Source of the DNA: Xanthostigma xanthostigma
Lineage: Eukaryota > Arthropoda > Insecta > Raphidioptera > Raphidiidae
Assembly (NCBI GenBank): GCA_963575645.1
Contig: OY754475.1
Span: forward strand, 19,506,509-19,570,508
Length of the DNA stretch: 64,000 nt
Direction: 5' to 3'
A model generated the notes under the pieces. It had not been told where the DNA came from and searched no databases. It worked only from the letters and a program-made list of their open reading frames with translations. The translations under genes were made by a program, and so were the position numbers. Below are positions 3,565-59,972 of the stretch, piece after piece; positions within the stretch are counted from its first letter, which is position 1; every line of letters begins with the position of its first letter.

Positions 3565-6500
3565 TCAATCTTTTCGACCCATAAAAGCGAAAGCGCTAAG
3601 CTTTGACTGTTTGCTTGTCGAAGGGGTGGCTTCTTCGCTGTCTGGCTGTTTGCGCTTCACCGAGGGAATGTTCTGTTTCGAGACGTTCTGTTTTTTGAAC
3701 GGGTTTTTAGATTTCTGAAAAAGAAACAAAACAAACGTCATCGAGCCGATGGATCAGTTTTCGAGATGCTTGTTCAGGAAAAATCTTGAAAACTACGTAA
3801 GATAAAATTCTGGAAACAATATTGTTCAGATCATTACGAAAAGCTTTTACAAACGATACCCCACGCGACTGATTAAATATTTTTTTGTTAAGCGTCAAAC
3901 TGTGGCACCTCCAAATTTTCAAAACAATTTTAGAATTTGTAAGTATTTCTTTTGGCGCGTTATGAAAAAATGATGTGAGTGGATTTTTACGATGTAACGT
4001 GAAAATTGACAGTATGAAGTTACTCGCTAAGCCATATGGCTTGGATTAGAAATTCAGCGATCCAAAATGCAAAATAGTAAATATGTTTCATTTCAAATTA
4101 TATATGATGTACTTATACATTATACAGGGTGAGTTTTAAGTTGATGCTTTATTTTTTACAGCGTGTAAAAATCAAATAGACGAGCAAATATTTCAAATAG
4201 TTTTTTTATCAAAACTCAAAAATATGAGAGAAACAGCCTTTCGAAGTTTAAATAAATTTTATTAAATTTTCTTTAATTTTGAGGTCGGTCCTGGGGTTAT
4301 ATTATGTCACTATGGAAATATGTTATTATTACACATGTCAGTTTCAAATAAGCACCAACATACTTGATAACAACAACTTATTTCCATAGTGACATAATAT
4401 AACCCCAGGACCGACCTCAAAATTAAAGAAAATTTAATAAAATTTATTTAAACTTCGAAAGGCTGTTTCTCTCTTATTTTTGAGTTTTGATAAAAAAACT
4501 ATTTGAAATATTTGCTCGTCTATTTGATTTTTACACGCTGTAAAAAATAAAGCATCAACTTAAAACTCACCCTGTATATACAGTATGTAAACACGTAAGG
4601 TGCACATAGGGAAATTAGCATTGGGAAAAAAATACTTAGATCAGAGTTAGCCATGACTGCACTAATTGTTATTTCTATTGAATTATCGTGGTAATCTTGA
4701 AGATTTCTATTTTGTTTTGATTTATTTTTATTTTACTTGGCTGTTTTAATAATAAAAAGCTCTTATAAATCATTATTTTAATTTTTTTGTACAAAAATAA
4801 AACAAAAAAACAACTCCATCTGTTTGGAAACAATTCATTCAAAAATTGTCTGACTGGTATGACGTATGCGCGTTGGTAAATCAGTGACCCAAATGTCTAG
4901 GTTCAATACGAATAGGCGGAGATATTTGATCTCGCACCATATTTAAGTATTTTTGGGAATTTAATTTCCCATTAATAAAAAAAGTCCGATTATGTTGTAA
5001 TCATTTGAATATTTTCTTCGGTAGTATACACATTCATTTTGCAAAAGAATATTATCTGTCAAATTGAAAAACAAGATTTCAAGGCTCACTCTGATCCAGT
5101 CATTTTTTCCCAATGTATAGAGTATCGATCGTATAGGTATTGTTGAATATTATTGAAAACATTTGTTGATTGTAAATATTAGTGAAGCGATTTGAACACA
5201 GTTAAAAAGTACCTTTTGAGCTTCGTTATTTTTCACAGCAAGATTCTCCTTGTTCTTTTTACTAATATCGTCAAAGATCTCGAGTGCGCTCCGTTTATCG
5301 TCCTCGTTGCCGTCTGTGTTCTTGCTGAACGGATTACGAACCCCACGTTTCGGTGTGTTTTCCAGCAACGACATTACAGTCGGACCAGGAGTGTCCAAAC
5401 CTCCTGCAGTTATATCGCTGAGTGAATCTGCAGTTTCGTTAAACAAGTCTTCATTTTCCTAGAAAAAAAAAAATTGTTTAGCGCCACGAGCTTACGAATT
5501 TATGTGTAAACGACTTTATGTCGACCGTTATAGTTAAAACAAGTCTAAAGTAATTTATAGTTCATAGTAATTATCGTAGATGGCAGCATTATCTGACATT
5601 GCTCTCTGACGTCAGCGGCTTGATATAAGATCTTAATAATGAAAAAAATGTATTTTTGCCCCTGGTCAAACGTCTCACTTGTAAGAACTTAAGATAGATT
5701 TTGACGGAGGCACGATAAGAGATGTTGCACTACCTCCTATAAAATAGCAGCCAATGCTAAAAACCCCAGTCAAATATGTTCAGTAAAGCGAATTCAATTT
5801 GATTTTCACCCGAGCGAAGCCGGGTCGTTCAGTTATTATAACCTATGTCCTAAAACACAGTATCACCTGTCGAACAGCCAGAAATGATTTGAAATCGGTT
5901 CATCAGTTTCTATGATTATCCCCAACAAACTTTTCCTCTTTATAATACTAGTATAGATAATATAGTACAGTGATTCCCAAAGTGGTCTATATCGACCCCC
6001 AGGGGTCGTCGACAACTTGCAAGGGGTCCATGTTAGCGGGAAAAAAATTGGGGCTCCATGAAATGAAAATGGGGGTCAACGATAGTGAATCTCCTAACAA
6101 AAAAAGAAACAAACTGGACATCGTTTACCGAAGAGATTTAAGATTAAATCTAACTAAATTGATGCCAAATGTTGAAAATTTATTATTAAAGCATCAGGTT
6201 CATTCCTCACACTAAAAGCATTTATTTTTTACTTAGTTATTTTATGTAACAGAAAGTAAATTTTAATTTGATTCGTTTAATTTGAATCTAATTAATAAAT
6301 GTATAAAACTAAACATTTCACACTACATTTCACTACCGTTATAAATTTAAATCGTTCAAAGTGAGTAGCACTATACCGGTTGTCAAAAATACATTTGAAA
6401 TTAATGAATTTGCAAAAAAACAATATCAGATAAGCAGGGGGTCTAATCAAAACTGAAAAACATGGCAAGTGGTCTACGAGACAAAAAAGTTTGGGAACCT

Positions 6501-9500
6501 CTGATATAGTAGAACATAAGTCTTGAATCTGTCGGAGCTAGTAGACTCATGTATTTTCAATTTCTCATTCATCCTTACTATTGGCAGTCATAAAAAAACC
6601 TTTATTAATTTGAGGTTAAACGCTGTACATCATATTTTTCAATTGCGAGAGAAGTAGAGACTAAAAACTTGAAAACAGATAAAAATAGATGGTGTTGAAA
6701 ATACATGAGTTCGACTGTATCCAGGCGGGAACCGTTAAAAGAATCAGGGCCGGATTTAAAGGTGTGGAGGCCCCTAATTATTTTCCAAACAAGTTAAACC
6801 ATTTTTTTCTTTTAAGTGTTCCAATAATTTATTGATAAAACAAATCAAATTCTTTTCAAAAACATACGTATAGATAATAGTAAAATGTAAAATACAATAA
6901 ATAAACCAAAAATTTTATCTAGAAATTTCTATTGTGGAGGCCCCACTCTTCCGGGGCTTCAGCCCCGGTTGCCCCTCCCTAAATTCGGCCCTGAAAAGAA
7001 TGTTTACCTTCGTTTCCGTAGTATCTACCGATTCAGCGACCTCGTCGACAAGCTCTTCAGACTGAGGAGTGAAAATGCTCGGAGATTCAGCGCGGTTCTT
7101 TCGCTCAACGGCGGACGAATTCTCTTCAACCGATGGCCGTCGAAGCTGTCGATTCCGTTTCATCGTCATCGCTTTTGGCGCGATGACGACCTGCGATTCT
7201 TGTGACGGTTTCTCTATGTAAATTTCTCGCGCCGGCGCCATTGCGTTTAACCGACCTCCGTGTATATCGGACACCTGTTAATCGTGAGAAGAGATGTTAT
7301 GAATGTCCCACATCGAAATATTTACTGGATTATACAGGAATCAGATTTAAAATGGCATATAATGTACTATTTCTGTTATCTTTCTACACATGTAAAATTC
7401 CAACTAAATAATATTTTGATATACCAATAACTTTGAACGAATTTTATAAAAAAACTAATTAGAAACTAAATATTAATTATTTTTTATATTGCTAAATTCG
7501 GGAGAAATAATAAATTACTTCATGTTGACGCGTAGAGTGCTAATAATGAGCCAAAACTGTACGATAATGTATTACTGCATAGTTTCTGGACCAATAGGAA
7601 CGCGGTAGCGAGCCGAAACTGTACGGTAATGAATTATTACTGCATAGTTTCTGGACCAATAGGAACGCGGTAGCGATTTGTATTTATATGAAAACAGCAT
7701 CGCAATTCAGCGAAAGTCAGGGCTATCTTGTGTGCATCGAGGGTGGTGGGTACGTCAATCAATGAAGTGATTTATTATTTTTCCCTCTTTTATCAGGGCC
7801 CCGATTACATATTAATATATGTCAAATAGACGTCAATGCGTAGAAGTAGAGAGCTATGAAAAAGGGAATATCACTCAGCATAGATCACGATACAAAGAAC
7901 TCGATAGAGGCGTTCCCCAGGGATCAATATTAGGACCCTTATTTTTTGTTCTATATACCAATGACCTTCCGGATATCATAAACGATTCCGTAACTATGTT
8001 CGCAGATGATACTTCCATTTTATTTCATGCAAACAATACAAATTTACTTTTTAAAAATATTAATAATTCTGTCACTTCACTTTTAGAATGGTATGAAAAT
8101 AACAGCCTTAAAATCAATATTGAAAAAACTCAAGCCATATGCTTTAATAATATTCCTATAAACTCAGTTCCTTTAGAAAACTCTAAATCTATAGTATTAC
8201 ATCCTCACACAAAATTCTTAGGCATTTACATTGATAAAAATTTAAATTGGAAGTGTCACGTTGAGTCAGTCACCAATAAAATTTCTAAATTTACATACGC
8301 TCTTAGAGTATTACGAAATAGTGTATCAATTGAAGTCCTCATAGAGGTTTTTAACGCATTTGTCCAATCTGTAATAAGGTTTGGTATAATTTTTTGGGGA
8401 CATGCTACATCCGTTTTAAATATTTTAAAAATACAAAAAAGATGTCTTCGTATCATCAATCGATCGAATTTAAGAGAACATTGTAGACCTTTGTTTAAAA
8501 AATTTAAAGTATTGACGGTATTTGATATTTATATATATGAATGTTCAGTGTTTGTGAAGAGTAATCCTGATATTTTCAGTCAATATTTACCGGAACATGG
8601 CCATAATACAAGACATAAAAGCAACTTAACACTAAATCAAACAAAAAAAAACCAAATATACAAAGGAGTTGTAAACAACTGTATAAAAATTTATAATCAT
8701 TTAGATGCTGACTTAAAAGCACTCCCAATCGCCATGTTTAAGAAAAAACTTAAATACAATTTGCAACAAAACTGCAGGTACTCAATCCAAGAATTTGTTG
8801 AAAATTTCTAATTTCTTATCTTATATACATGACGCATTCAATGTACTATGTACTGTACTGAATAAAGGCAAATTATTATTATTATTATTATTACTCGTGC
8901 TAGTTGAATAAAGTATTATGTGCGACCATTGATCGAAGGAGAATATTCCACTCGCGTGTTACCGCACTCGCTACGCTCGTGCGGCAAATTTAACGCTCAT
9001 GGGATCTTCTCCTTCTCTCACTAGTCGCACAATATACTATTTTTGTTATCTTTCTACACATGTAAAATTCCAATTAAATAATATTTTGATATATTAATAA
9101 CTTTGAACGAATTTTATAAAAAAACTAATTAGAAACTAAATATTAATTATTTTTTATATTTTTTTAGATCAGTTCTGAAGAAGGTCCAAATCCGGATCAA
9201 AACGTTAATGTATTAATTATATTAATATATTGTCTGAAAAATTAGTCAAAATTTTATTTATTAACACTTTGACGGACACTTAAAAATTCAGTTTTGTTCC
9301 AATTTTGACACTACAGTTTTTTTCATGTTTGAAATTGAATTACTAGTAGATATTTGTACGGCTATAAAACGTTCCGTAGTATACGACGGCTTCAGCCGTC
9401 GTGTCAAACTTTTGAAGTTTTGTTTATGACGGTCTAAGCTGGTTTGTCCGTCAAAGCGTTAAATAATAGTAGTCCTATAACTTTTTTGCACTACTCCCTA

Positions 9501-12500
9501 TGAAATATTAGATCCGTGGCGCGTATTATAATAATTGTATTACCACTCGCGTGGCTTAAAACTCGCCCGTTGTCGGGGAAACACCTTATACAAACAATCT
9601 ACTATTTTACTCCTTTATCTTTTACAAAACATAATCTGACTAATAACGGAACACGAGTACCTTGTCATTTCCTCATTAAAATACTCAGTTTTTTCAACTG
9701 ATTCTATTCAAAAATTGTGGATGAGTTGCCAATATTTTTTTTTCTTTTACGAGTACGGCAGCGGACATGACAGATTTAATTGCTGACGCTGTTATAAATA
9801 ATTGCATAAGATTTTGACAGCTTTAGTGCGTCCTTAGTGCGGCTTTATAAAGTTTAAGATCACATTCAGATTTCAGAATTTGGGATATTTTATTGTGATT
9901 TGGTCCTGTGCGAATGTTTCAAATCCGCATAATGGAAGAAATATCAGTAAATGGCTTCGACTTAAGTACGATGTGTCGACTGTGCTTATCAAGAAGCGAT
10001 GCGACGTTAGATGTATTCGCCTTTTCAACCAGGTTAATGAGTCAAGTAGCCGATGTAATTATGAAGTGTGCTCCGGTTCAGGTAAGTCGCATATAAAGAG
10101 TTTGCGATTTATAATGTTTACACATTTTTAGAAAATCATAATTTAGAAAATTAATGATACTTTGTTTCCGTACGTGAATAAATAGATTGTTAAGATCACT
10201 TAAAATGCGTGTTAATTGCCTACACTTTTGTACAACAAAACAGGGCAAATATTCTATAAATATATTTCCGATTCTCAGATAACGAGATGCGATGATATGC
10301 CGAATTTAATCTGCAATTCATGCAACACTCAACTGGAGAAAAGTCACCAGTTCCAGAAGCAAATCGTGCAGTCTGATCAGACACTGCGACGCTATCTACA
10401 GCAACTACGAACTTCGAACAAACAAATCAAGGGTGAATGTTCCAATCAGGGACCTTCTGATGATTCTTTCACTAATAAGGATATCAAAACGAAAAGCGAA
10501 TCTTTAGAACTTCGAGACGTGTCTGATAATGTCAACTTGAAAGAAGAGGTGCCATCAAATGATAATTCAGCATACGCAATTAGTGAGAAAATATTTATAA
10601 AAACGGAAATTAAAGAGGAACCGATAGATTATGAACCATTCATTTCAATAGAATGCACCGATAACTTAAAAGAAACTTTACCTAGAGAAGGCGGTAGTAA
10701 AGCCAGCTGTGAAATTAAAGAAGAACCGATAGATGATAATTCGTTAATTCTAATGGAATGTACTGATATCTTAATAGACACTTTATCCAAGGGTGACGAC
10801 CGTACGGCAATCGAAGAACAATCGGATAACATCCTGGGTCTTCCTAATGCTGATTTAACAGGACAGTTTGATAATCGTGAATATGGAAACGAAAATACTA
10901 CCGGAAGTTATAAGAAGCCCGAGGAATCAAATAAACATAAATATAAATGTGATCTGTGTAATAAAGATTTTGCTTTTCTGAGCAAATTTAATATTCACAA
11001 CCGTAGACATACAGGCGAGAGACCGTACCAGTGTGACGTTTGCAATAAGACTTTCACAGTAATAGATAATTTGAGAAGACACCGACTCGTACATACTGGT
11101 GAGAAACCATATCAGTGTGACGTTTGTAATAAGCGTTTCAGTCGTTTAAATACTTGGAGAGCACACCAACGTGTGCATACTGGTGATAAGCCGTATCAAT
11201 GTGACTTTTGTAATCAGTGTTTCAAAGAGTCGTCGAATTTGATAACACACCAGCTTAAACATACTAGTGAGCGGTCGTACCAGTGTGGCGTTTGCGATAA
11301 GTATTTCTGCGAAACAGGTGCTTTGATAAGACATCAACGCGTACATACTGGTGAGAAGCCATATCAGTGTGACGTTTGTAACAAACAATTTACTCAATCG
11401 GGCAGCTTAAGCAGCCACAAGCGTACACACTCGTCAGTCGTTTAAGGTTATGTTTAGTTTTGAAATCAAGTCACAATCTGGTAGTGGGCGATCTTACATG
11501 ACAGAATGTGTTTAGAGAAATATTTAAGGTAGTACGAGCACTAAGGCAATTTTAAATAAAAGGCTTGATTTTTTTTATATGAAGTTGGACTAAGTCTAAA
11601 TCAATTCTGAAAACTTTAGGGGGGGTTGCCCGATTATTTAAATAAATAAATGACTTCAAAAGTAGGCATATTTAACATTGGCTTTATGGTAAAACAGTAG
11701 ATGGATGATATGTTTTCATTGATTTCTCCAAAACTAGTCGGTGGAAATTAAAAAAAAAATTGTTAAAATCTTAATAAATTAACCTTAATAAAAAAAAACA
11801 AGAGCGCTATGGCTCAGTGGATAAGGCGTCAGACTAGTAGTGACAAGGTTCCGGGTTCGATTCCTGCCGCGCGACATAATTGAATTTTTCTACACTTTAA
11901 AGTTATTAAACAGTTGTGAGGAACTATACCGTAAGAATTTTACATATATTATTAAGAGGCCGTTTCAACTTTAAGGAACGTGGACTATCTTAATATAATA
12001 GAAAAACAGTCTATAACTTAAGATCTGTTTAATAAAAGAAACAATTTCATGTTTGATTCACCCAACACTCTCGCTTCTGTGAAGGTTCCTATCTAGCATT
12101 TCCTATTTAATAAAAAACAAAAACACACGAAACGGATTATTAACTTTCGATTAGTTCCACTAAGATGAGTGTATATGTTACGGCTAATACGAGAAACTAG
12201 TTTATTCGCGAATTAACCGGCGTCAAGGATAAATGCCGAATATGTCTTAGTTTCTCGCTTTTTCGCCTATTATCAAGTGCAAGCAGGTTAAAACGCGAAT
12301 TATCCAAAGGCAACCGTATAAAACGTTTATTGTCATTAGTTTTGATTCCTAAGTAGGTATTCTTATTTTTATGATAAATCTATTTGTTTTTTATCAGTGT
12401 TGTTTTATTTTATTTGGAGAACATTTGTTATTTTGTATTATTTTTATAAAAATTACAGCTCACTACTTATACGCACGTCTATGAATTTGAGGTTAATTGC

Positions 12501-15500
12501 TTACTTAACATATTATCCGGCTAATTCGCGAAAGAGCCAAGAGCTATTGGATATAACCGATCATATTGTCTAATTCGCGTTTTAACCAAATAATTTGCGA
12601 AAATTGTTAAATCATATTTCTTTCTTTGGTAATAACCGGCTGTACTGGTTAATTCGGGTATTAGCCGGTTAATTCGCGAATAAACTAGTTTCGCGTATTA
12701 ACCGTAACATATATACAGTCATAGATATAAGTATGTTCATTACCGCATATTATAAGACAGTACAGCAACGTCAAATTGTACTAAAACTTCTATTTCGGTA
12801 CAGTTTGTTGTATAAACACGTATTAGTACAAGCGCAAGGCTGCATTCGCATCTAACTTCCGAGCCTTTTAGATTCGTGGCGCGTATTGTACACTCAACAA
12901 AAAAACGTTTTTGCCACAGCCGTTGGACGGTAAAAGGAACAAAACTTTCTTCTTTTCTGTGTAACATTGTTTGAAGACATTCTATAATTTGAATTTAAAC
13001 AACGCATTAACATCCGTCCCGATTTTTTTCTAAATGAAGCCGATTAAAAAATGGTGTCCTGATTTTTTAATAAAAGTTTAAATTCAGTTTCTTTTTTTAT
13101 TTTTCTTCGGTTCACGTGTTGCAAACTAAAATAGCATCAAAGTATATCTGTCCTTGAATTATTCAAAGATTAAACCACTGATTACTGAACTGAAAATAAG
13201 TAAGTAAAACAGGGGTGCATTTGCGGGCGTTATGAATTTTCTGACAGTGCAGTGTTACCACTGTAAAGGTATAAAATTCGCGTAATGGAAGAAATATTGG
13301 TAAATGGTTTCGACATAAGTACAGCGTGTCGATTGTGCTTATCAAAAGGCGATGCGACTCTAAATATATTTGACTTTTCAACCAGGTTATTAGACCAAGT
13401 AGCCGATGTAATTATGAAGTGCGCTCCGGTTCAGGTAAGTCGCTTTTTAATTGGCGAAAGAAAATTTGTAAGGACCTTCATTGTCATACACTTAGGTATT
13501 ACAAAATAGAATAAATTATTATTTTGTAAATTTACAGATAACGAGATGCGATGAGATGCCGAATTTCATCTGCCAATCATGCAACACTCAACTGGAGAAC
13601 AGTCATCAGTTCCAGATGCAAGTAGTGCAGGCTGACCAAACACTGCGACGCTATCTACAGCGACTACGAACTACTAATAAACAAATCAAGGTTGAATGTT
13701 CCGACCAGGGAGCTTCTGAAGATTCTTTAAATCATAACACTGCTACAGATATCACGTTGAAATGTGAATCTTTAGAATTTCAAGACGTGTCTGATTTTAA
13801 TGTTGACTTGAAAGAAGAGGTGCCTTCAAATTGTACTTCATCTCATACATCTCACGACGAAATTTATTTAAAATCTGAAATTAAAAATGAACCGATTGAT
13901 GATAATTCATCAATTCCAACAAAATGTAATGATGACTTAGTAGACACTTTATCCGAGGTTAATGACGATGTCGAAATTAAGTTAAAAAACACAGAAATCC
14001 AAGAAACACCCTCTCCAGATTTAACAAAACATTTTGATAATCGTGAAGATGGACACAAAAATACTTCGGGATCTCATAAGAAGCACAAAAAATTAAATAA
14101 AATGAGATATAAGTGTGACGTTTGTAATAAACATTTCGCTTTTTTAAGTAAACTAAATATTCATAAGCGAGGGCATACTGGAGAGAAGCCGTATCAGTGT
14201 GACGTTTGTAAAAAGTGTTTTGGCGATTCCGGTATATTGTTAAAACATCAGCGCGTACATACTGGTGAGAAGCCATTCCAATGTGACATTTGTGATAAGT
14301 GTTTTAGCTTTTCGCACGATTTAAAAACCCACCAACGCGTACATACCGGGGAGAAACCATATCAGTGCGACGTTTGTAATAAGAGTTTCACCCAATCGGG
14401 TACTTTGAGGACACATCAGCGCATACATACTGGTGAAAAGTCATATAAGTGTGGCGTTTGTGATATTTGTAATAAACGTTTCAGCGACTCGCGTAATTTG
14501 GCAAAACATCGGCGCATTCATACTGGTGAGAAACCATATCAATGCGACGTTTGTAATAGGCGTTTCTGCTCTTCACAAAATTTGATAAGACACCAACGCG
14601 TACATACTGGTGAGAAGCCGTATCAGTGCGACGTTTGTAACAAAAGTTTCAGCCAATCAAGTACTTGGAAAGCACACCGGCGTGTACATACTAGTGAGAA
14701 GCCATATCAGTGTGACGTTTGTAATAAGTGTTTCAGAGAATCATGTAATTTGATAACACATCAGCTTAAACATACTGGTGAGCGGTCGTATCAGTGTGGC
14801 GTATGTGATAAGTATTTTAGCGAAACAGGTGCTTTGATAAGACATCAACGAGAGCATACTGGTTGAGAGCTAGTAAAAATCAATTTACTTAATCAGGCGG
14901 TTTAGAGAGATCCAAGGGTAAACACTCGTCAATTTAATTTTATGTTTGATTGTGAAAACAAATAATAAAATGTAAGTTAGAGATCTTCCATAAAAGAATG
15001 TGTGTTAAGAGAAATATTTAATAAAATAAAAAACTCGAAAACATACGAAACGAATTATTAACTGTCGACGATTTGCAATATTCCTCGAAAACAAAAATTA
15101 GTAAACAAAAAAAGATGCCAAAAAGAATGAAATTTAAAAACTGTGATGTATCAACATCATCAACCTTTCCAACAATCTTTCAAATTACAAATAATATCCA
15201 ATGCTGACAATTTGAAAACAAAAATCCTTTCACGGATAGTTTCACGTTACCCGTCCTTGTCGCACTCACTGTATTCGAACTAAAATTAACAGCTGCATGA
15301 AAATTAAATATTTCATACATCTAATTTGTATTTTTTTCATATAATTATTATTTATTATAATATATATCCTAATTTTATCTTCATAACAAACCAAGGGTTA
15401 ATTCATTTGACGTAAGTCTTGTCACAAAAAGATACCTAATTATTTATGATATACAGTGTGTCCCCGGATTGAGTTCACAATAGATGAGATTGACTAAAAA

Positions 15501-18500
15501 TTTTAGAACTGGAATTTCATATTTTGGGATTCCTCCCTGCTTGGTCTGAAACTTATTTTTAGTTCACTTTCGATTTTTTTTAAATCAAGTAGGCCTTTAC
15601 AGTTGAGCAAAATCTCTTTTCGTTTCAGGTAAAGTACCTTTTCCGTCCATAGTACGCAAAAGTGTCACTAAGAAAAATTGTTCGTAATGAAAAATTATGG
15701 CGTTATGCAAATTTTCGGAATGATCGGTCTAAAATTTTTGGTCAATCTCACCTATTGTGAACTCAATCCGGAGACACACTGTATATCCATTTTTGTCCGC
15801 GCAATAATTACATTGTGAATGTGTAAAATTCGCATTATGGAAGAAATATCGATAAACGGTTTCGATGTAAGTACAGTGTGTCGATTGTGCTTATCAAGAG
15901 ACGTTACTACATTAAATATATTTGCCTTTTCAACCAGACTTATGAATCAAGTAGCCGACGTAATTATGAAGTGTGCTCCGGTTCAGGTAAGTCGCTTTTT
16001 TGTTGGTGGAAAAAAAAAACATAGCTTTATAGGACTAGTTTAAAATATGTCTTCATTGCCGTACACTTAATAGCATAAATAAATATATTTCCGATTCTCA
16101 GATAACTAGTTGCGATGAGATGCCGAATTTAATCTGCAATTCATGTTCCACTCAACTGGAGAAAAGTTATCAGTTCCAAAAGCAAATAGTACAGTCTGAC
16201 CAAACACTGCGACGCTATCTACAGCAACTACGAACTTCTAACAAACAAATCAAGGTTGAATGTTCCAACCAGGGGCCTTCTGATGATTCTTTAATTCATA
16301 ATACGAATATCACAACGAAAAGCGAATCTTTAGAGCTTCAAGACGTGTCTGATAATAATGTCAACTTGAAAGAAGAGGTGCCGCCAAATTATACTTCAAC
16401 ATACGCAATTAGCGAGAAAATATTTATAAAATCGGAAATTAAAGAGGAACCGATAGATTATGAGTCATTCACTCCAACGGAATGCACCGATATCTTAATA
16501 GACTCTTTATCCAAGGGTGACGACCGTACGACAATCGAAGAACAATCGGATAACATCACGGGTCTTCCTCATGCTGATTTACCAAAACAATTTGATAATC
16601 GTGAAGGTGGAAACAAAAATAGTTCGGGAAGTCATAAGAAGAACGCAGAATCAGATAAAAGAATATATAAATGTGATCTTTGTAATAAATATTTTGCTTT
16701 TTTAAACCGATTTAATATTCATAAGCGTGAACATACTAGAGAGAAGCCGTATCAGAGTAGTGTTTGTGAAGAACGTTTCAGTGAACCAGGTACTTTGATA
16801 AAACACCAACGCGTGCATCCTAGTGAGAAGCCATATCAGTGTGACGTATGTAATAAGTGTTTCCGCAAATCCAGTAATTTGAAAATACATCAGCGTCTAC
16901 ATACTGGTGAGAAGCCATATCGGTGCGGCTTTTGTAATAAGAGTTTCAATCAACCAATACATTTGACAAAACACCAGCGCGTACATACTGGTGAGAAACC
17001 GTATCAGTGTGACGTTTGTAATAAGTGTTTCAGAGAATCATGTAATTTGATAACACATCAGCTTAAACATTTTGTTGAGCCGTCGTATCAGTGTCGCGTA
17101 TGTGATAAGTACTTCAGCGAAGCAGGTGCCTTGATAAGACATCAACGAGAGCATACTGGTTGACAGGTAGTAAAAATCAATTTACCCAATCAGGCGGTTT
17201 AAAGAGCTCCATCGTCAATTTAATGTTATGTTTGATTGTGAAAACAAATAATAAAATGTAATTTAGAGATTCCATAAAAGAATGTGTGTTAAGAGAAATA
17301 TTTAATAAAATAAAAACTTCGAAAATATACGACACGAATTATTATTAACTGTCGACGATTTGCAATATCCCTCGAAAACAAAAATTAGTAAACAAAAAAA
17401 GATGCCAACGAGAATGAAATTTAAAAACTGTGATGTATCAACATCATCAACCTTTCTACAATTTTCTGACAATTTGAAAACAAAAATCCTTTCACGGATG
17501 GTTTCACGTTACCCGTCCTTGTCGCACTCACTGTATGCGGACTCAAATTAACAGTTGCATGAAAATTAAATATTTCAGACATCTAATTTGTTTTTTTTTT
17601 CGTATAATTATTATTTATTATAATATATACCCTAATTTTACCTTCATAACAAACCAAGGGTTAATTCATTTGACGTAAATCCTTTTCATATGTAGCCCCA
17701 AAACTTTTAAATGACATGTCCCAATCACCTGACTTGGCAGATATAACAAGCAAAATTTTGAATCTGAAACCAGCCAAACTAAAAATACTAATAAAACAAT
17801 TTGTTTATAAAAGGCAACTCAATACCAACAATTTTCGTGCCTGTGTGTTAACCAACTAGATTTAATTTTTCTTCTTTTTGTAAATATGATTTTATAAAGT
17901 TTTATGTACAGGGGCAGGAGGAAGATCAAACTCTAGTTTGATCCTGTCCCTATTGCCTAAATTTGTACATTTAGAGCAATAAACATTTATTATTATTATT
18001 TTTGATATATATCCATTTTTTCAGTATAAAGTAGTGTTGATCCAATAGAATATTAAGATGAAGGAAGGTTTTGGTTGAAGATCATAAAATAAACTTTACC
18101 AGTGTTTCGCTAGTGGCAAACGTTTCGAAAAATTTATTTTCATCTTCAGGGCTTCAAGCTGGTCAAGTGGTGGTAAATTGTAAAGCTTATTTATGATCCT
18201 CAACCCAAAACCTTCCTTCATCTTAATATCCATTTTTGTTGGCGCAATATTTACATTGTGAATGTGTAAAATTCGCATAATGGAAGAAATATCGATAAAC
18301 GACTTCGATGTAAGTACAGTGTGTCGATTGTGCTTATCAAGAGACGTTACTACATTAAATATATTTGCCTTTTCAACTAGACTTATGAATCAAGTAGCCG
18401 ACGTAATTATGAAGTGTGCTCCGGTTCAGGTAAGTCGCTTTCTTGTTGGTGAAAAAAAAAACATAGCTTCATATCCATACACTTAGGTATTACAAAATAG

Positions 18501-21500
18501 CATAAATTATTTTATAAATATATTTCCGATTCTCAGATAACGAGTTGCGATGAGATGCCGAATTTGATCTGCCAGTCATGTTCCACTCAATTGGAGAAAA
18601 GTTATCAGTTCCAGAAGCAAATAGTGCAATCTGACCAAACACTGCGACGCTATCTACAGCAACTACGAACTTCTAACAAACAAATCAAGGTTGAATGTTC
18701 CAACCGGGGGCCTTCTGATGATTCTTTAATTCATAATACGAATATCACAACGAAAAGCGAATCTTTAGAACTTCAAGACGTGTCTGATAATAATGTCAAC
18801 TTGAAAGAAGAGGTGTCGTCAATTGATACTTCAGCATACACAATTAGCGAGAAAATATTTATAAAAACGGAAATTAAAGAGGAACCGATAGATTATGAGT
18901 CATTCATTTCAACAGAACGCACCGATAACTTAAAAGAAACTTTACCTAGAGAAGGCGGTAGTAAAGCCAGCTGTGAAATTAAAGAAGAACCGATAGATGA
19001 TAATTCGTCAATTCCAACGAAATGCACCGATATCTTAATAGACACTTTATCCAAGGGTGACGACCGTACGACAATCGAAGAACAATCGGATAACATCACG
19101 GGTCTTCATCATGCTGATTTACCAAAACAATTTGATAATCGCGAAGGTGGAAACAAAAATACTTCGGAAAATCATAAAAAGAACGCAGAATCAGATACAA
19201 GAATATATAAATGTGATCTTTGTAATAAATATTTTGCTTTTTTAAACCAATTTATTATTCACAAGCGTGAACATACTAGAGAGAAGCCGTATCAGTGTAG
19301 TGTTTGTGAAGAACGTTTCAGTGAACCAGGTACTTTGATAAAACACCAACGCGTGCATCCTAGTGAGAAACCATATCGATGTGACGTTTGTAATAAGTGT
19401 TTCGGCAAATCAAGTTATTTGAAAATACATCAGCGTCTGCATACTGGTGAGAAGCCATATCGGTGCGGCATTTGTAATAAGAGTTTCAGTCAATCGATAC
19501 ATTTGACACAACACCAGCGCGTACATACTGGTGAGAAACCGTATCAGTGTGACGTTTGTAATAAGTGTTTTAAAGAAACAGGTCATTTGAGAAAACACCA
19601 GCGCATACATACGGGTGAGAAATCGTATCGGTGTGACGTTTGTAATAAGTGCTTCAATCAATCTGCTCACTTGATAAGACATTATCGTGTACATACTGGT
19701 GAGATGCCATATTAGTGTGACGTTTGTAAAAAGTGTTTCAACAAATCACAGAAGTACATAGCAAAATGTGACCTCGAATAAGGAACCAACTCAATGTTTA
19801 TCTGGAACTATTGCTACATGTGATAATATGATTTTGTATTTTGAAATTTATCTTATAATAAATTTAACTTATAATTTTAAAATTAACACGTGAACGTAGC
19901 AAGTTAAAACAACAATAAAAAATTTAATTATTGATTCTCCTAACATTTTAAATAGAAAACATTCTTGAGCGATAAAAAACTAAATTGTAATTTAATATAA
20001 TTTATAATAAACTAGCGGCCCGTCCCGGTTTCACCCGGGTGCAAAACTGTTCTGGAAAAATCCCCATCTACACAGCAGAACTATCAAAGTACATTGTTTT
20101 GATGTATCTCTAAAAATTTGGCCAGCGTTAGCCACGTAAGCGTACAAAAACATTTTTTTTGACAAAACACCGTCATAGTTCAGTCAGCTTGTACAAAATA
20201 TTTACAAATTATAAACAGAAACCTTCCTTGTTTATCGCTCTTTCTGTTAGTGAAAACCGTATTTTTTGAGTTTATCGCATTCAGATAGGCAGATAGACAC
20301 GGCGGAGAGACTGTTTTATATAAATAAAAAGACCTGATTGATTTTTCAAAATTGCCATTTTTTTATGATTCTCGACTTTTCGAGTCGTAAATATTTCTGT
20401 CCTTGATTTATTGTAAAGAACAAACCACCGAATGAAAATCAGGATGTCAAACAATACATGGGGATGAAATCATAAACTTGTATGTGACGGATATGAATTT
20501 TTTGTCAGTAGTGTTGTCATTTGGGAAGGTGTTAAATTCGTATAATGGAAGACATATTCGTTAACGGCTTCGATTTAAATACGACGTGTCGATTGTGCTT
20601 ATCAAAAGGCGTTGCGGTGTTAAATATATTTGATTGTTCAACCGAATTAATGGATCCAAGAGCCGATCTAATTATGGAATGTGCTCCGGTTCAGGTAAGT
20701 CGCTTTTTCGTCGATAAAAAAATAGCTTGTTAAGATCACTTAAAACATCGTCTTACACTTATTGTTATTGCACAACAGCATACATTATTTTATAAATGTA
20801 TTCCCCATTCACAGATAAAGAGATGCGATGAGATGCCGAATTTCATCTGCCAATCATGCAACACTCAACTGGAGAACAGTCATCAGTTCCGGAAGCAAAT
20901 AGTGCAGTCCGACCAAACACTGCGACGCTATCTACAACAACTACGAACTTCTGACAAAGAAATCAAGGTTGAATGTTCCATTCAGGGCCCGTCTGAGGTT
21001 TCGTTCATTCATAACACTAGTACAGATATCACAATGAAATGCAAATCTCCAGAATTTCAAGACGATGTGTTTGACGTAAATGTTAACCTGAAAGAAGAGA
21101 TGCCTTCGAATGATACTTCAGCGTACACAATTAACGAGAAAATATTTATTAAATCTGAAATTAAAGAGGAGCCAATAGATGATGAATCAATCATTTCAAC
21201 GGAATCGACTGATAACTTAATAGAAACTTTATCTACAGAAGACGTTAATAAAACCAGCTGTAAATTTAAAGAAGAACCGATAGATGATAATTCTTCAATT
21301 CCAACGGAATGCACTGATATCTTAACCGACACCTTTTCTGAGGTTGATGACGGTATCAAAATAAAGTTAAAGAACTCACAAATCGAAGAAAAATCGGATA
21401 ACATCCTGAGTCTTCCTCATGTTGAACATTTTGATAATCGTGAAAACGGAAGCAATACTTCTGAAAGTTATAAGAACCTCGAAGAATCCAACAAAAGGAC

Positions 21501-24500
21501 ATATAAATGTGACCTTTGTAATGAATATTTTGCTTTGTTAAGTGAATTTAATATTCACAAGCGCGGACATACAGCAGAGAAGCCGTATCAGTGTGACGTT
21601 TGTAATAAGTGTTTCGGCAATTCAAGTTATTTGAAAATACACCAGCGTCTACATACCGGTGAGAAGCCGTATCAGTGCGACGTTTGTAACAAGAGTTTTA
21701 GCCAATCGATACATTTGAGAGCACACCAGCGTATACATACTGGTGAGAAGTCATATCACTGTGACGTATGCAATAAATGTTTCAGCAAGTCTGATATTTT
21801 GAGACAACATCAACGTGTACATTCTGGTGAAAAACCGTACCAGTGCGACATCTGTAATAAGTGTTTTAGCGAAGCAGGTACTTTGAGAAAACACCAGCGA
21901 GTACATACTGGTGAGAAGCCATATCAGTGTGACATTTGTAATAGGAGTTTCAGCACGTTAGACAATTTGAGAAGGCACCAACGCGTACATACCGGAGAGA
22001 AGCCATATCAGTGCGACGTTTGCAATAAGAGTTTCAGCCAATCGGGTACTTTGAGAACGCATCAGCAAATACATACTGGTGAGAAACCAGTGAAATGCTG
22101 CGTTTGTAACATTTGTAATAAACAGTTCAGCGATTCACGCAATTTGGCAAAACATCGGCGAGTGCATACTGGTGAGAAACCGCATCAATGTGACGTTTGT
22201 AATAAGGGTTTTACGTCTTCACAAAATTTGATAAGACACCAACGCGTACATACTGGTGAGAAACCATATCGATGTGACGTTTGTAACAAGAGTTTCAGCC
22301 AATCAAGTACTTGGAGAGCACATCAGCGCGTACATACTGGGGAGAAGCCGTATCAGTGTGACATTTGTAATAAGAATTTCAGTTCATTTGACCATTTGAA
22401 AAACCATAACCGTACACATACTGGTGAGAAACCATTTACATGTGACGTTTGTAATAAACAATATTCTCAGTTAGGCGGTTTGAGTAACCATAAACGTAAA
22501 CATTCGTCAGTTGTTTAATTTTTTTTTTGATTGTGAGAAACAAATTATAATGTGTAAATTAGAGATCTTCCATGACAAAATATGTGTTAAGAGAAATATT
22601 AAATAAAAAAAAACGAATGTGCTTTATACCACACGACTGAAGTAAAACTTCTTCCTGCCATAATTTGTTATTATTCACCCGAAAATTCACAAAATATGAA
22701 CTCTAAAATGATTTTACAATTTTATTCACTTTAAACGTAGAATATTTAATGTATTGAACAAAATACTAATTTATAAAATTGTTCAAGAACGAAATGAACA
22801 GTCTAATTGTAAGAAAAAAGAAATATAAACATAAAGATAATGAAAACAAAAGTAATACATTGCAATTACTTAGCTCTCGTTGGATGTTACGCGTAAATTT
22901 TTATGAAATATTATGCAACAGTGTAGAACAGCTCAGCACAGAGCAATGGCGCTCGGAGTGAGTCATTCACAAAAAAAGAACGACTCGCTCCGCTCCGAGA
23001 AATGAGTCGTTCATTATGAACGACTCGCTCAGGACTCAGGAGTGACATCACTAGTATGGGGGTGATGTGGCAAGCTTGTGTTTGTCTGTGATGTATATTC
23101 ATGTTTATCCGCGCAGTATAAATTTCGCATCATGGAAGAAATATTGGAAAACGGTTTTGACTTAAGTACAATGTGTCGATTGTGCTTATCCAAAGGCGTT
23201 ACGGCGTTAAATGTATTTGCCTTTTCAACCAGGTTAATGGACCAAGTAGCAGATGTAATTATGAAGTGTGCTCCGGTTCAGGTAAGTCGCTTTTAAATAT
23301 AACTTATCTACGTGTAAAAGAGCGTTATTAGCACAGCACAAACCATAAAAAATCTCTTCTAATTGTTCTTTCTTTTGTCAATATCTTTCATATGTAGAAA
23401 ATAAATGATGATGATCACACATTTTTGTATTACAAAATAGCATAAATTACTTTATAAATATATTCCCGGTTCACAGATAGAGAGATGCGATGAGTTGCCG
23501 AATTTCATCTGCGAATCATGTTACACTCAACTGGAGAAAAGCCACCAGTTCCAGAAGCAAATAGTGCAGTCTGACAAAACACTGCGACTCCATCTACAGC
23601 AACTACGTACTTCTAACAAACAATTTAAGGGTGAATGTTCCAATCAGGGGTCTTCTGAGGATCCTTTGATTCATAACACTAATACGGATATCACAATTAA
23701 AAGCGAATCTGCAGAATTACAAGACGTGTCTGATAATAATGTCAACTTGAAAGAAGAGGTGCCTTCAAGTTATACTTCAGCATACGCAATTAGCGAGAAA
23801 ATATTTATAAAAACGGAAATTAAAGAGGAACCTACAGATTATGAGTCATTCACTCCAACGGAATGCACCGATAAATTAATAGACTCTTTATCCGAGGGTG
23901 AAAAAAAGTTAAAACACTCGGAAATCGGAGAAGAATCAGACATCACAAGTCTTTTTCTGGCTGAATTAACTGAAAATTTTGATAATCGTGAAGATGGAAA
24001 CAAAAAAACTTCCGGAATTCGTAAGAAGCGTAAAAAATCAAATAAAACATATAAGTGTGAAGTTTGCAATAAACAGTTTATTTATTTACGCAATTTTACT
24101 GTTCACCAGCGTAAACATACTGAAGAGAAACCGGACACTTTAGCAGAACGTCAGGCCATGCATACCGATGAGAAGCAATATCAATGTGATGCATGTGATA
24201 AAATTTTCAGCAAGTCCGTTCTTTTGAGAAGACACTACCGTGTACATACTGGGGAGAAACCATATCAGTGCGACGTTTGTAATAAGAGTTTCACGCAATC
24301 GGGTACACTGAGAACACATAAGAAAATACATACTGGTGAGAAGTCAGTAAGAAGCGGCGTTTGTAACGTTTGTAATAAACAGTTCACTGATTCGCGTAAT
24401 TTGGCAAAACATCGTCGAGTACATACTGGTGAGAGACCGTATCAATGTGCCGTTTGTAATAAGGGGTTTACCTCTTCTCAAAATTTGAAAAGACACCGAC

Positions 24501-27500
24501 GCGTTCATACTGGCGAGAAACCATATCAGTGTGACCATTGTAATAAGTATTTTACGACAAATAGTGCTGTGGGAAGACATCTACGTCTACATACTGGTGA
24601 GAAGCCGTATCAGTGTGACATTTGTAACAAGAGTTTCAGCCAATTAAGCTATTTGAAAAAACACCGACGTCGACATACTGGTGAGATATTGCAATAAACA
24701 ATATTCTCATTTTGACGGTTTGAGTAGCCTCAAACGTAAACATTCGTCAATTGTTTAATTTTATGTTTGATTGTGAAAAAACAAATTATAATATGTAAGT
24801 TGGAGATCTTCCATGACAAAATGTGTTAAGAGAAATACTAAATAAAAAAAAAAAACTTAAATACACACGAAACGAATTTTTTTAACTAATAGGTCATATG
24901 CATGAGACTCCAAATTGGTTTAAATTTTTATTTGGAAATATATTTTAGTCTCTGATCATATCGTAATGGTTATTTTATTAATCTAATCACTCAAAAAATA
25001 CAAATAATAAAAAAGAAATGTAGAAAATACGCGCTATTTTCGAATTTTCAAAACGCAGCGTGACGTCAGAGTATATATCAATAACAGTTTCCATTGCGAC
25101 TGTGTCGTCTCACAATAAGATTATGTCAGTATTTAAAGAAAACAACAAATAAACTTCATTTAGAACATAGACAATTGACATCAAGGTTGACATGCATCAT
25201 ATATCATGACGTCACATAAGCCCGCCAACATGGCCGATTGTTTAAACTGTCTAGTTTTGAATGTGAAATTTAATATTTTTTTTCTTATGATATTACATTT
25301 TTAAATGATTATCAATTTTTTTCCCTATTATGGTTGACTAAATAATCTATTAAAAATATAAAAATTACACATGCATATGACCCATTGTGTCCTAGCCAAG
25401 CTTTCACCTATTATTTATTTATCAAGTGACTTATTCCAAAAATATTTAAACAAGAAAGTATCAAAAATATACTAAATTAAGTACTTAGAATTAAAAAAAG
25501 AAATGCAAAAAATATTTAAATTGCAGCAAAAATTATACTTTTCGTACTTTATTTGGTAATTCTGAAAATGCTATATTAACAAACGAAATCGCTACATGCT
25601 TCTCTACTTATTTCCACACCATCTCCGACCAATAACCGTGACCGGATTATGCATAAGTGATGGGATCTTAGTGATCAAGTAATATGAAGTCCATAAAACT
25701 GTAATGAATGTACCGATTTTTTCAAAAAGTGGGACCTTAATTAGGTATTTTTTCGATTTTTCATTCGCGAGTTGCGAATGCTATTTCTGTCCTTGATTTA
25801 TTTAAAAAATCGACCACTGAATGAAAAGTATGATTAAGGGGGTGATGTGATTGCAATTTTGCATCTGTGTGTGATGTATACGCTAGGAAAGTATCTTTTT
25901 ACAAGCGACATTTGCGCCCTCTCGTGTTTTTTTTTTTTTTTAATTCTGGTTCAGTCAAAACCTTAGTGTCATATGTTATACGTGCATTTTAATAAGGATT
26001 ATTTGTTGAATAAAATGGGTAAAAAGCTATCAAATCGGAAGTGCTGTGTTGTTGATTGTAAAGATACACCAACTAAACATCCAGAATTACAATTCCACCG
26101 TTTTCCTGGATTTTCTTATGAATTAGAGAGGAAAAAAATGGCTGGCAGCAGTACGTCGTCAAGGGTAATTAAATTTTATTTTACGTCTGCAATCATTATT
26201 AAATACATGAAAAATATCATAATTGTTATTTTGTTAACAAAAATAAGATTTAAAAATTTTTGAAATGAAAAAATGTGTATCATTTATGTAGTTTCTTTAC
26301 TGACATTGTGCGTAAATATTTTTTTATAATTAAGAATAACGCTGGTTTCCATGGGTTTGTAAGTTTTGAGTGAACCAGATTTTAAAAAATCAAACACGAA
26401 ATGGCGCAAAGATCGCATGTCAAAGATTATAGCGTATACATTTTTGCCTGCGCAGTGTTAACATTGTAAAGGTGTAAAATTTGCATAATGGAAGAAATAT
26501 TGGAAAATGGTTTTAACTTAAGCACAACGTGTCGATTGTGCTTGTCAAAAGGCGTTACGGCGTTAAATATATTTGCCTTTTCAACCAAGTTAATGGGCCA
26601 AGTAGCCGATGTAATTATGATGTGTGCTCCGGTTCAGGTAAACCGTTTTAAATAAAACTTATCTATGTGAAAAAAGAGCGTTCTTAGCACAGCACAAACC
26701 ATAAAAAATCTCTCCAAATTGTTTTTTCTTTTGTCAAAATGTTTCAAATTTAGAAAATAAACGATGCGTATCATTTTTATATTACAAAATAGCATAAATT
26801 ACTTTATAAATATATTCTCGATTCACAGATAACGAGATGCGATGAGATGCCGAATTTCATCTGCGAATCATGTTACACTCAACTGGAGAAAAGCCACCAG
26901 TTCCAGAAGCAAATAGTGCAGTCTGACAAAACACTACGACTCTATCTACAGCAACTACGAACTTCTAACAAACAAATCAAGGGTGAATGTTCCAATCAGG
27001 GGCCTTTTGAGGATCCTTTGATTCACAACACTAATACGGATATCACAACTAAAAGCGAATCTGTAGAATTACAAGACGTGTCTGATAATAATGTCAACTT
27101 GAAAGAAGAGATTCCGTCAAGTTATACTTCAGCATACGCAATTAGCGAGAAAATATTTATAAAAACGGAAATTAAAGAGGAACCGATAGATTATGAGTCA
27201 TTCACTCCGACGGAATGCACCGATAACTTAATAGACTCTTTATCCGAGGTTGACGATGGTATCGAAAAAAAGTTTATAATCCCAGAAATCGAAGATCAAT
27301 CGGGCAACATCACGAGTATTCCTCCAGCCGATTTAACAAAAAATTTTGATAATCGTGAAGATGGAAACAAAAATACTTCTGGATCTCATAAGAAACACAA
27401 AAAATCAAATAAAACGAAATATAAGTGTGACGTTTGTAATAAACAGTTTATTTATTTAAGCCAATTTACTATTCATCAACGTGGACATACTGGAGAGAAG

Positions 27501-30500
27501 CCGTACCAGTGTGACGTTTGCGATAAGCGTTTTAGCGAACCGGGCACTTTGATAGAACACCAGGCCGTGCATACTGGTGAGAAACCATATCAGTGTGACG
27601 CTTGTAATATGTGTTTTAGTTTTTCACACGATTTGATAACACACCAAAGCACGCATAACAGTGAGAAGCCACATCGGTGTGACGTTTGCAACAAGTGTTT
27701 CGGCGAATCGTGTGATTTGATAACACATCAACTTGAACATGCTGGTGAACGGTGTGGCGTTTGTGGTCAGTGTTTCAACGGAACAGGTACTCTAAGGAGA
27801 CATCAACGCGTACATACTGGTGAGAAACCGTATCAGTGTGACGTTTGTAATAAGCGTTTTAGCTTTTCACATAATTTGAGCAGGCACCAACGCGTACATA
27901 CTGGTGAGAAGCCATATCAGTGTGACGTTTGTAATAAGTGTTTCAACCAGTCGGGTGTTTTGAAAATACACCAACGTCTACATACTGGTGAGAATCCATA
28001 TCAGTGCGGCGTTTGCAATAAGAAGTTTGGCAAAATAGGTAAATTGAGAATACACGAACGCGTACATACTGGAGAGAAACCGTATAAATGCGACCGTTGT
28101 AATAAGTGTTTTACGACAAATAGTGCTTTGGGAAGACATCAACGTGTACATACTGGTGAGAAGCCGTATCAGTGTGACGTTTGTAATAAGTGCTTCGGCA
28201 ATTCGAGTTATTTGAAAATACACCGACGACTACATACTGGTGAGAAGCCGTATCAATGCGATGTTTGTAATAGACAATTTTCTCAGTCAGGCAGTTTAAA
28301 TAGCCACAAGTGTCAACACACAGTTGCTTAATTTCATGTTTGCTTGTAAAAAAACAAATTATAATATCGTCGGTCTAATTTTAAAACCTCGTAAGTCAAA
28401 ATTTTATGAAATTATGATTTTAGGCTATAGTGCTTTAGGATTTTAGTACCTACACTTCTGTAAAACCTCGTAAAAAATAACCAAAATTGACTTACGGGGT
28501 TTTAAAATTAGACCGACGATATCTATCTATCTATCTAATACAGTAGGTTCGTTCCAAGCAGCCAGCAAACGGTTCCGAAAATGTATCACCACTATTTTTG
28601 AATAAAATAAATAAATAAATATTGAGTAAAAAAAAACACTTACAATGCCTTGGTCGTCTTCATCATTCTCGTCGTCATCTGCGAGACGAGCGAGTTGATC
28701 CGATAGCAACATTCGACCGTATTTGGCTGCTAGTTTAATAGAGAGAGACAACAAATGCGGCGAATGTGAGTGGACCAATGAAATGAGTTCCAGCGCGCGT
28801 TTATCCTGATCGCTTCGACATGCCAACTGTAAAACAATACGTCGTAACGTTACTCTGTTGTTCCGATCGGTTTTCTAATAAATATAGTTTTAAAAAAAAA
28901 CTAAAAAACACGCTTTATATCGAACTAAAAAGTAAAAAATATTTTTTTTTAAAATAAGCTCAAAACCATAATGAATAAAAAATACAAGTATTATTGTGAA
29001 AAAAGCGTGGGGCGCTTTGTTCCACATTTTCGTACATCGAGCGCCCCACGCTTTTTTCACAATAATACTTGTATTTTTTATTCATTATTGTTTTAAGCTT
29101 ATTTTAAAAAAAATTATTTTTTACTTTTTAGTTCGATATAAAGCGTGTTTTTTAGTTTTTTTTAAACTATATTTATTTTCCACTTTTTAGTTCGATTTAT
29201 TGTCAAAAATTTGCCGAAAAAAAAAACAATTTTTTTTTTCGGCGTGGACGGGATTAGAACCCACGACCCGTGATTCCGAGAGTTGACGTCAGCGAAGACC
29301 TGTGCCTTAGACCGCACGGCTAGCCAGTGTACTTACAGAGCTGGCATATTATACCACTATATAAACCACTTGCTGTAGTTCAAATGAGTTTACAAACATA
29401 CATACTCACAAACTTACAAGTGAAACTAATATAAAGCGTGTAAAAATCACGGACGCTTATCGCTCAATATACCGTGTAAACTCTATATAGCGACACTCAA
29501 GGGACTGTGCACTTTGTGGCGTTATTGAGAGTTGTCGTTAAACGGAGAGAAGAAATTAATATTTTTTTATTGTTTGCAAGTTTGTGGACAACTGAGAATG
29601 TGATAACTTATCGATAAGCAGCTGAGCTAAACATATGAAAGATAAACCCAACAAACAAAAGAACGAATTTCTTAGAATCTTCGGTACGCCTGATGCCGAC
29701 AACAAAGCAACAAAATAACAAGCAAGTACTGTTTAATTGCTTAATGATGACGTATTGTTGTCGTTATTTAGAGTGGGTGTGTCGTCATTTAGAGTGTATC
29801 GTTGTATGAGCAACAAGGTAAACCAACCAGAGTTTAGTAATTTCGACGGTTTCAGTAGTTTGTCGTTATATCAAGTTTACACTGTACAAATTTTTAAAAA
29901 TGAGATCCCAAGCAGCGTTGTTATGGCCACACGCGACGGTAATCATTTTTGAGAACTCAATTGCGTTTGTGAATTGAAAGATAAGAATTTATACTCGAAA
30001 AGATGCGACTTACCGAAAACAATTTTACGGCGGATTCTTTGAACACGATGTCTGCAGTCGAACTTTCGGGCATCTGTCTCGTTTTAACGACGTCTAAGTG
30101 CGTAAATCTGAACAGTTGATCTTCGAGTTGGCTCTTATCGTTCTCGTCGATTCCGCATAACGGAAACTGAAACATGAAAAAAATTGACGGCCTGTCACGA
30201 TTGGCTTCGAAATAAACAATTCTGGTTTTTATTCTTAAATTAAAAAAAAAAAAAAAAAACAGGTAGCCTTGCGATCGCAGGAATATTAAAAAAATGATTG
30301 TCTGTAAAGTCGGTTTACGGACGATAGTTTTACGTGATAACGTATTCCGCTCGGTCAGGCGGAACGTGACACATTTCGGAACGTGACACTTTTTCGTGCA
30401 TGCAGCCGGTGTTTCATCAATTTATAAGACGTTATCACGTCAAAAGCATTCGAAAGATACTAAAGTAGCCCTTTGTCACTGTTAAAGGCCCAACAATAAA

Positions 30501-47851: not shown

Positions 47852-48222
47852 CGTGAGTTTTGTTGCCAATAAGTTTTATTTCAAAAATCTCGTCTAAGAA
47901 ATATTGACGTTTTTGTCAGGAAGTCAAAAACCGACTCCCCGACTGATCTGAAATTTTGTAGGATGAAGGTTTTTACATGGATTCATAGCCAGGTCATATC
48001 AAATACATTTTCATAGTTTCAATTAATGAAAAATAACTGAATATCGACTCGCAAGGATGGAAACATTTGGAGATCGGTGAACGATAGTGGTTTTATAGAT
48101 TTTTGCCACTCCTAGAAAAGATTGAAATGTCAATCCATGCCTTGAAATATGTTTATTAAAAAGTATTTCTTTCTAAAAACAGTTGACACATATACGCCAT
48201 TTCGATAAGCCAGTTGTTAAAT

Positions 48223-56914: not shown

Positions 56915-57002
56915 TTCATGTAGTCAGCTAAAAGTTCTATAAAAACAATAGAATTACTCCACTGTATTTGGATTTTTCTTGTAAGAACGCTACAAAAGAA
57001 TA

Positions 57003-59912: not shown

Positions 59913-59972
59913 AATTGGATAAATGGTTTGCAAAAATAATGGAATTGTCACTATCCACAGTTGCTCACACAC

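Follow-up and report, generated by a model that had tools for sequence, protein, structure and literature searches.

Host gene WDHD1 and its intron 12

The analysed window is a stretch of 64,000 nucleotides (nt) of Xanthostigma xanthostigma from contig OY754475.1, with no N in it. It holds the gene WDHD1 (And-1/Ctf4) on the minus strand, and seven intact two-exon ZAD-C2H2 zinc-finger genes lie inside WDHD1 intron 12, head to tail and all (7/7) on the plus strand, with their whole coding sequences within the intron. The WDHD1 model, read from 47,127 to 3,565, joins its exons at GT..AG junctions into a phase-consistent frame of 1,019 amino acids (aa) with 0 internal stops. The parts of the host gene that matter here are as follows.

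3565..47127, minus strand: WDHD1 (And-1/Ctf4) host gene, 15 coding exons (gene model, Pfam, PDB)
28644..28874, minus strand: WDHD1 exon 12, containing the end of the Ctf4_C match (model, Pfam)
7275..28643, minus strand: WDHD1 intron 12, GT..AG, 21,369 nt (model)
7008..7274, minus strand: WDHD1 exon 13 (model)
5213..5458, minus strand: WDHD1 exon 14 (model)
3565..3714, minus strand: WDHD1 exon 15, C-terminus ending SKLSAFAF followed by the stop (model)

The identity of the host was examined with Pfam and PDB searches. Three families exceeded their cut-offs, namely WD40_WDHD1_1st (325.7 bits), Mcl1_mid (266.7 bits) and Ctf4_C (31.4 bits), and they follow each other in the order of WDHD1, with the WD40 part N-terminal, Mcl1_mid in the middle and Ctf4_C after it. 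The top PDB match was 'WD repeat and HMG-box DNA-binding protein 1' (E 8.7e-127), and the matching entries were 8b9d, 5ogs, 5gva and 5gvb. Of the junctions in the model, the acceptor of exon 6 and the donor of exon 8 are the least certain, both being non-consensus, and the model may lack a small exon before exon 6.

The Ctf4_C match stops at aa 789 and exon 12 at aa 799, which places intron 12 ten residues beyond the match, between the folded core and the low-complexity tail. The remaining 13 introns measure 648-4,453 nt each and 19,134 nt together, so that intron 12 is by far the longest. For the tail that exons 13-15 encode, no relative turned up in the PDB: one search returned two chance-level matches, neither of them WDHD1, and another returned none. 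Strand, order, splice phase and the C-terminal KLSAFAF motif, which resembles the C-terminus of human WDHD1, argue for the assignment of these exons to WDHD1. The vertebrate WDHD1 tail has an HMG box, which may not define the insect form. The HMG-box family was not among the 25 best-listed Pfam families for our model (weakest listed E 0.052), and its absence from the part at 3565-7274 may reflect either a true loss or a missed tail exon.

Seven ZAD-C2H2 genes in the intron

The gene models of the array are given below.

9932..11445, plus strand: ZAD gene 1 (exon 1 9932-10081, exon 2 10279-11445), 438 aa, 6 fingers
13285..14866, plus strand: ZAD gene 2 (exon 1 13285-13434, exon 2 13538-14866), 492 aa, 9 fingers
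15837..17163, plus strand: ZAD gene 3, hybrid with its 5' part from gene 4 and its 3' part from gene 2 (exon 1 15837-15986, exon 2 16102-17163), 403 aa, 5 canonical fingers
18280..19715, plus strand: ZAD gene 4 (exon 1 18280-18429, exon 2 18537-19715), 442 aa, 6 fingers
20545..22518, plus strand: ZAD gene 5 (exon 1 20545-20694, exon 2 20815-22518), 617 aa, 12 fingers
23132..24697, plus strand: ZAD gene 6 (exon 1 23132-23281, exon 2 23477-24697), 456 aa, 7 fingers
26488..28331, plus strand: ZAD gene 7 (exon 1 26488-26637, exon 2 26829-28331), 550 aa, 11 fingers

From the first ATG to the last stop the array covers 18,400 nt, or 86% of intron 12. The domain content was examined with a Pfam scan that took in genes 1 and 7, in which zf-AD (PF07776) scored 50.8 and 48.0 bits against a cut-off of 28; genes 2-6 align with these two through the ZAD without gaps. 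The zinc cysteines of the CxxC...CxxC type are present as CRLC and CxSC in all seven translations. The ZAD of gene 1 had three PDB matches, of which grauzone (1pzw) was the best (E 2.9e-05), the others being LD15650p and CG2712. The fingers form a C-terminal array in each protein, 5-12 per protein and 56 canonical C2H2 fingers over the seven.

An earlier sequence-only reading of this DNA had put WDHD1 exons 12 and 13 about 21 kb apart, with seven two-exon ZAD-C2H2 genes on the opposite strand between them, and both claims agree with the models, the intron having exactly the span it gave. The same reading had each ZAD exon at exactly 150 nt. This length holds from ATG to donor in 7/7 genes, as the coding part of exon 1 with the 5' untranslated region outside the models. 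The wording 'ZAD exon' is loose, as exon 1 carries the first half of the ZAD only: the zf-AD match, at aa 14-88 in gene 1, continues from the first exon into the second. The shared splice phase was seen correctly: it is phase 0 in every gene, with a donor that starts GTAA and a small intron of 103-197 nt.

Gene 3 is a hybrid of genes 4 and 2

The third gene of the array takes its 5' part from gene 4 and its 3' part from gene 2. For this, gene 3 was compared in 60-nt windows with the units of the two other genes. Between 15,837 and 16,977, 19 of the 20 windows were nearer to the gene 4 unit than to the gene 2 unit and one was a tie, and between 17,037 and 17,637 all 11 were nearer to gene 2; the next two windows resembled neither. 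Along its N-terminal coding part, gene 3 shows 93-98% identity to gene 4, compared with 71-88% to gene 2. The change from one parent to the other was located with an informative-site test.

17001..17031, plus strand: switch from gene-4-like to gene-2-like sequence within the finger array of gene 3 (informative-site test)

The test used 228 informative sites in 16,560-17,160. To the left of the switch 187 of 194 sites were gene-4-like, to the right 3 of 34, and permutation gave p 0.001, the lowest value it could yield. The register given to gene 2 in this test, that of its tail, biases the left side towards gene 4, so that the 60-nt windows and the N-terminal identities are the fairer evidence there. 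Gene 3 differs from gene 4 by 3.4% in the leader plus exon 1, by 8.2% in the intron and by 5.3% in the fingers, and from gene 2 by 5.9% in the fingers and 5.1% in the 3' flank; genes 2 and 4 differ from each other by 21.6%.

The hybrid is flanked by homologous spacer ends, 14,868-15,418 matching 17,165-17,681 and 15,783-15,835 matching 18,226-18,278. The order of gene 2, hybrid and gene 4, together with these matching spacers, fits one unequal crossing-over between genes 2 and 4. The repeat step from gene 3 to gene 4 is 2,443 nt, ATG to ATG, as measured today, and such an event would have lengthened WDHD1 intron 12 by about 2.4 kb. Each of the two spacers also contains an element with terminal inverted repeats (15,448-15,787 and 18,050-18,229) that the other spacer lacks, and these two elements look like later insertions.

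Gene conversion was examined in the ZAD and linker over 21 gene pairs, and genes 2 and 5 alone survived correction (0.031). A near-identical linker block in genes 4 and 7 had been considered as a converted tract; at 0.199 after correction it was not significant.

Selection on the ZAD, the linkers and the fingers

The ratio of nonsynonymous to synonymous divergence (dN/dS) of the ZAD was 0.09-0.55 in all 21 gene pairs. The synonymous divergence of this domain reaches 0.49, and all seven open reading frames (ORFs) are still open over 403-617 aa. Judged by these ratios, the ZAD is under purifying selection.

All seven linkers contain IKEEP or IKNEP, and each has 4-5 psi-K-x-E sites, compared with 0.27-0.54 obtained by shuffling, a comparison in which the seven genes are related and thus not independent. 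Read as motifs, these would be putative SUMO sites of a repressor.

In the fingers, the four DNA-contact positions had entropies of 2.8-3.4 bits, and 10 of the 17 non-contact positions had 0-1.2 bits. The ratio of nonsynonymous to synonymous differences (pN/pS) in 35 close between-gene finger pairs was 0.61 at the contacts and 0.20 elsewhere, and in 15 finger pairs 0.47 and 0.18, respectively.

Signals flanking the ZAD genes

Over the 70 nt that precede the ATG, the genes align better on average than shuffled controls (13.3 versus -4.5), and farther upstream they do not. Past the stop codon, the first AATAAA occurs within 84-270 nt in 7/7 genes and within 144 nt or less in six of them. In gene 7 it belongs to a cluster (28601, 28606, 28610 and 28614, spanning 28,601-28,619) at a distance of 24-42 nt from the donor of WDHD1 exon 12. 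Of the positions in seven other WDHD1 introns, 28% have an AATAAA within 144 nt and 46% within 270 nt. Because of these chance rates, and because the seven genes are not independent, AATAAA after the stops was set aside as weak proof of separate genes when taken alone. Gene structure, constraint, leader and AATAAA together fit seven genes that would be transcribed separately.

The same signal was counted in noncoding intron sequence on both strands. Host-sense AATAAA in noncoding intron 12 is not depleted (22 seen, 25.5 +/- 4.4 expected), and in the ZAD sense it is modestly enriched (41 versus 27.7 +/- 5.4). The other WDHD1 introns gave 52 versus 38.2 +/- 6.2 in the host sense and 46 versus 37.6 +/- 6.5 on the other strand. 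Selection on host-sense polyadenylation signals in intron 12 was rejected, as the counts are at expectation.

A decayed relative outside WDHD1

Beyond the gene models, the seven proteins have a sole further match in the window.

60711..61491, plus strand: decayed ZAD-C2H2 relic (similarity to the seven proteins; by eye, donor at 60854 and acceptor ahead of 61326)

This relic has an array-like start, a broken frame and one finger left, and it lies 32 kb from the array. As a decayed relative is found outside WDHD1, the family is not confined to the intron. The contrast between seven intact genes inside and one decayed copy outside is suggestive, with a single copy on the outside.

Repeats and neighbouring genes

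Outside the array, about 1.8 kb of intron 12 at 7,361-9,160 consists of repeats and a reverse-transcriptase fragment. The fragment (RVT_1, 50.8 bits) is that of a retroelement, at 7816-8811 near the upstream end of the array, and it is bracketed by 130-bp direct repeats (7361-7490 and 9031-9160) that are 96% alike. In their long terminal inverted repeats, three small elements resemble miniature inverted-repeat transposable elements; two are those in the spacers beside gene 3 (15448-15787 and 18050-18229) and the third, at 28364-28522, stands beside the exon 12 donor. A short ORF between genes 6 and 7 (26015-26263) has a partial THAP match of 18.1 bits, under the cut-off of 23.9, and is possibly a transposase remnant. 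By eye, 11800-11880 resembles the head of a tRNA-derived short interspersed element, and ARAGORN and Rfam call nothing there; scans of the window for tRNAs (ARAGORN) and Rfam families (gathering threshold) likewise returned nothing.

A repeat of about 500 bp has four copies at 24888-25386, 33230-33732, 36097-36595 and 52838-53333, the later ones being 89-92% alike to the first. Some ORFs of the window resemble pieces of mariner-type transposase, a reading made by eye with no database match. Two further genes on the minus strand were recognised by eye from ORFs, namely a DDX23-like gene at 48200-57000 for a DEAD-box helicase whose N-terminus is RS-like, and a gene taken for MOCS3 (MOCS3/Uba4-like) at 58557-59972. 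The relic sits upstream of the latter.

Discussion

The sequence bears out the arrangement, for whose ingredients there are known precedents, and the well-preserved crossover is its best feature. The sequence-only reading had called such an array unusual, which was overstated. A GMC oxidoreductase cluster lies in an intron of flotillin-2 (Flo-2) in four insect species, the intron exceeding 83 kb in Drosophila (PMC1891103). Like the WDHD1 array, it consists of tandem paralogues that fill one large intron on the strand opposite to the host (almost all genes); unlike it, the GMC genes encode enzymes and not transcription factors. The TipE cluster is nested in the last intron of CG18675 across insects (PMC3240667) and is likewise a cluster of paralogues inside one intron, a likeness that covers the nesting and not the strand; its own feature is a stable membership, un-nested in beetle and moth (PMC3240667). 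The gene 2mit lies antisense in intron 11 of tim2, and nested genes make up about 6% of Drosophila genes (PMC3786989). This pair shares with our locus the antisense position within an intron of a chromosome-stability gene, but 2mit is a single gene.

Among ZAD genes themselves, 37 of 91 Drosophila ZAD-ZNF genes occur in 13 clusters and shared introns are known (PMC7655104). Clusters such as Odj-Nnk (PMC7655104) and the Cucoid clade (PMC9810180) resemble the array in combining ZAD with C2H2 fingers, in tandem duplication, in shared intron positions and in copy turnover (PMC7655104, PMC9810180). They differ from it in that a whole cluster within an unrelated host is not described in the accessible text of PMC7655104 and PMC9810180. 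The nearest cases are Hil_5, which lies in an intron of Hil_4, one ZAD gene inside another (PMC9810180), and a dcp-1/pita nested pair that is named in a reference title. Among the titles listed by literature searches, which most subscription papers fell outside, none was of ZAD genes arrayed within an intron of WDHD1. Mammalian KRAB zinc-finger clusters show the same tandem growth and changing finger sets; they differ from the ZAD array in the KRAB domain and the TRIM28 pathway, and they are not known to be nested in one intron. The earlier suggestion that the array is lineage-specific may hold, as the similarity of the paralogues weakly speaks for it.

We put at roughly 80% the probability that a tandem ZAD-C2H2 family lies antisense in WDHD1 intron 12, has expanded there on one or more occasions through unequal crossing-over between its units and is nested neutrally. 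Neutral nesting would be the plainest account, and no sign of the coupling between host and array that the sequence-only reading had thought possible was seen in the sequence. Each ZAD gene would be transcribed on its own. ZADs pair proteins, and those of the array would pair theirs; the 5-12 fingers would give each protein its own DNA site, and the linkers with psi-K-x-E sites of the SUMO type would make these proteins SUMO-dependent chromatin regulators, probably repressors. The location in intron 12 would most likely be an accident of where the founder landed, and the nesting may be tolerated because the intron falls between the folded core of WDHD1 and the low-complexity tail and because WDHD1 splicing would survive lengthening. 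A simple role in transposon silencing is disfavoured, because dipteran zinc-finger numbers do not track transposon numbers (PMC10547256).

Several observations weigh against parts of this account. In the spacer between genes 3 and 4, about 370 nt (17,682-18,049) have no counterpart in the gene 2-3 spacer, and the two insertions do not account for them. The alignment shows the conserved leader of genes 1 and 6 to be incomplete. The linkers, with dN/dS of 0.36-1.41, are looser than the ZAD, the highest value belonging to genes 3 and 4, and in gene 3 a cysteine is missing from one of the fingers. Four non-contact finger positions also reach 2.6-2.9 bits, so the DNA-contact residues are, by entropy, among the most variable finger positions but not alone in this. 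Positive selection on the contacts was rejected, since their pN/pS stays below 1 even though they are diversified.

It is also conceivable, if unlikely, that the nesting is kept by shared regulation, with open WDHD1 chromatin in proliferating or germline cells driving or timing ZAD expression. The seven inside copies are all intact and the one outside copy in the window is decayed, and the GMC cluster indicates that conservation of such a nested arrangement across insects is possible (PMC1891103). Yet the contrast between inside and outside involves one outside copy, the ZAD genes have, on average, a common leader of their own, and the expression of nested and host genes correlates poorly for TipE (PMC3240667).

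Antagonistic coupling is very improbable. Here, WDHD1 transcription through the array, or antisense RNA from the intron, would repress the ZAD genes by interference or double-stranded RNA. The geometry of seven coding regions antisense in the WDHD1 intron invites the idea, but no positive sign of it was seen in the sequence, and the host-sense AATAAA at expectation bears on it indirectly. A more specific form, in which S-phase transcription of WDHD1 would yield RNA complementary to all seven ZAD messages and silence them in proliferating cells, deserves slightly less belief again; if it were true, array growth would tune both the timing of WDHD1 and the dosage of the ZAD genes.

We give similarly little credence to the idea that exons 13-15 come from a different gene, or are joined to WDHD1 by an assembly error, so that the array is not truly nested. 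The lack of a PDB relative for the encoded tail speaks for it, but strand, order and splice phase all agree with WDHD1, the window is free of N, and the SKLSAFAF end resembles that of the human protein. That the array consists of young pseudogenes, as the relic and the weak constraint on the linkers might suggest, is the least probable of all, given seven frames open at such synonymous divergence and a ZAD dN/dS below 0.6 in 21/21 pairs.

The locus is a compact example of a growing regulator family, and it is valuable in that a single step of this growth is legible in the sequence, with its parents, the hybrid and a 30-nt crossover interval. As hybrid gene 3 places this growth within the intron, changes of the array alter the length of the WDHD1 pre-mRNA, in keeping with the lengthening proposed by the sequence-only reading. 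Whenever the array changes in size, the transcript of a replication gene inevitably changes in length, and the locus is a natural test of whether the lengthening of an intron by a nested array costs the host gene anything.

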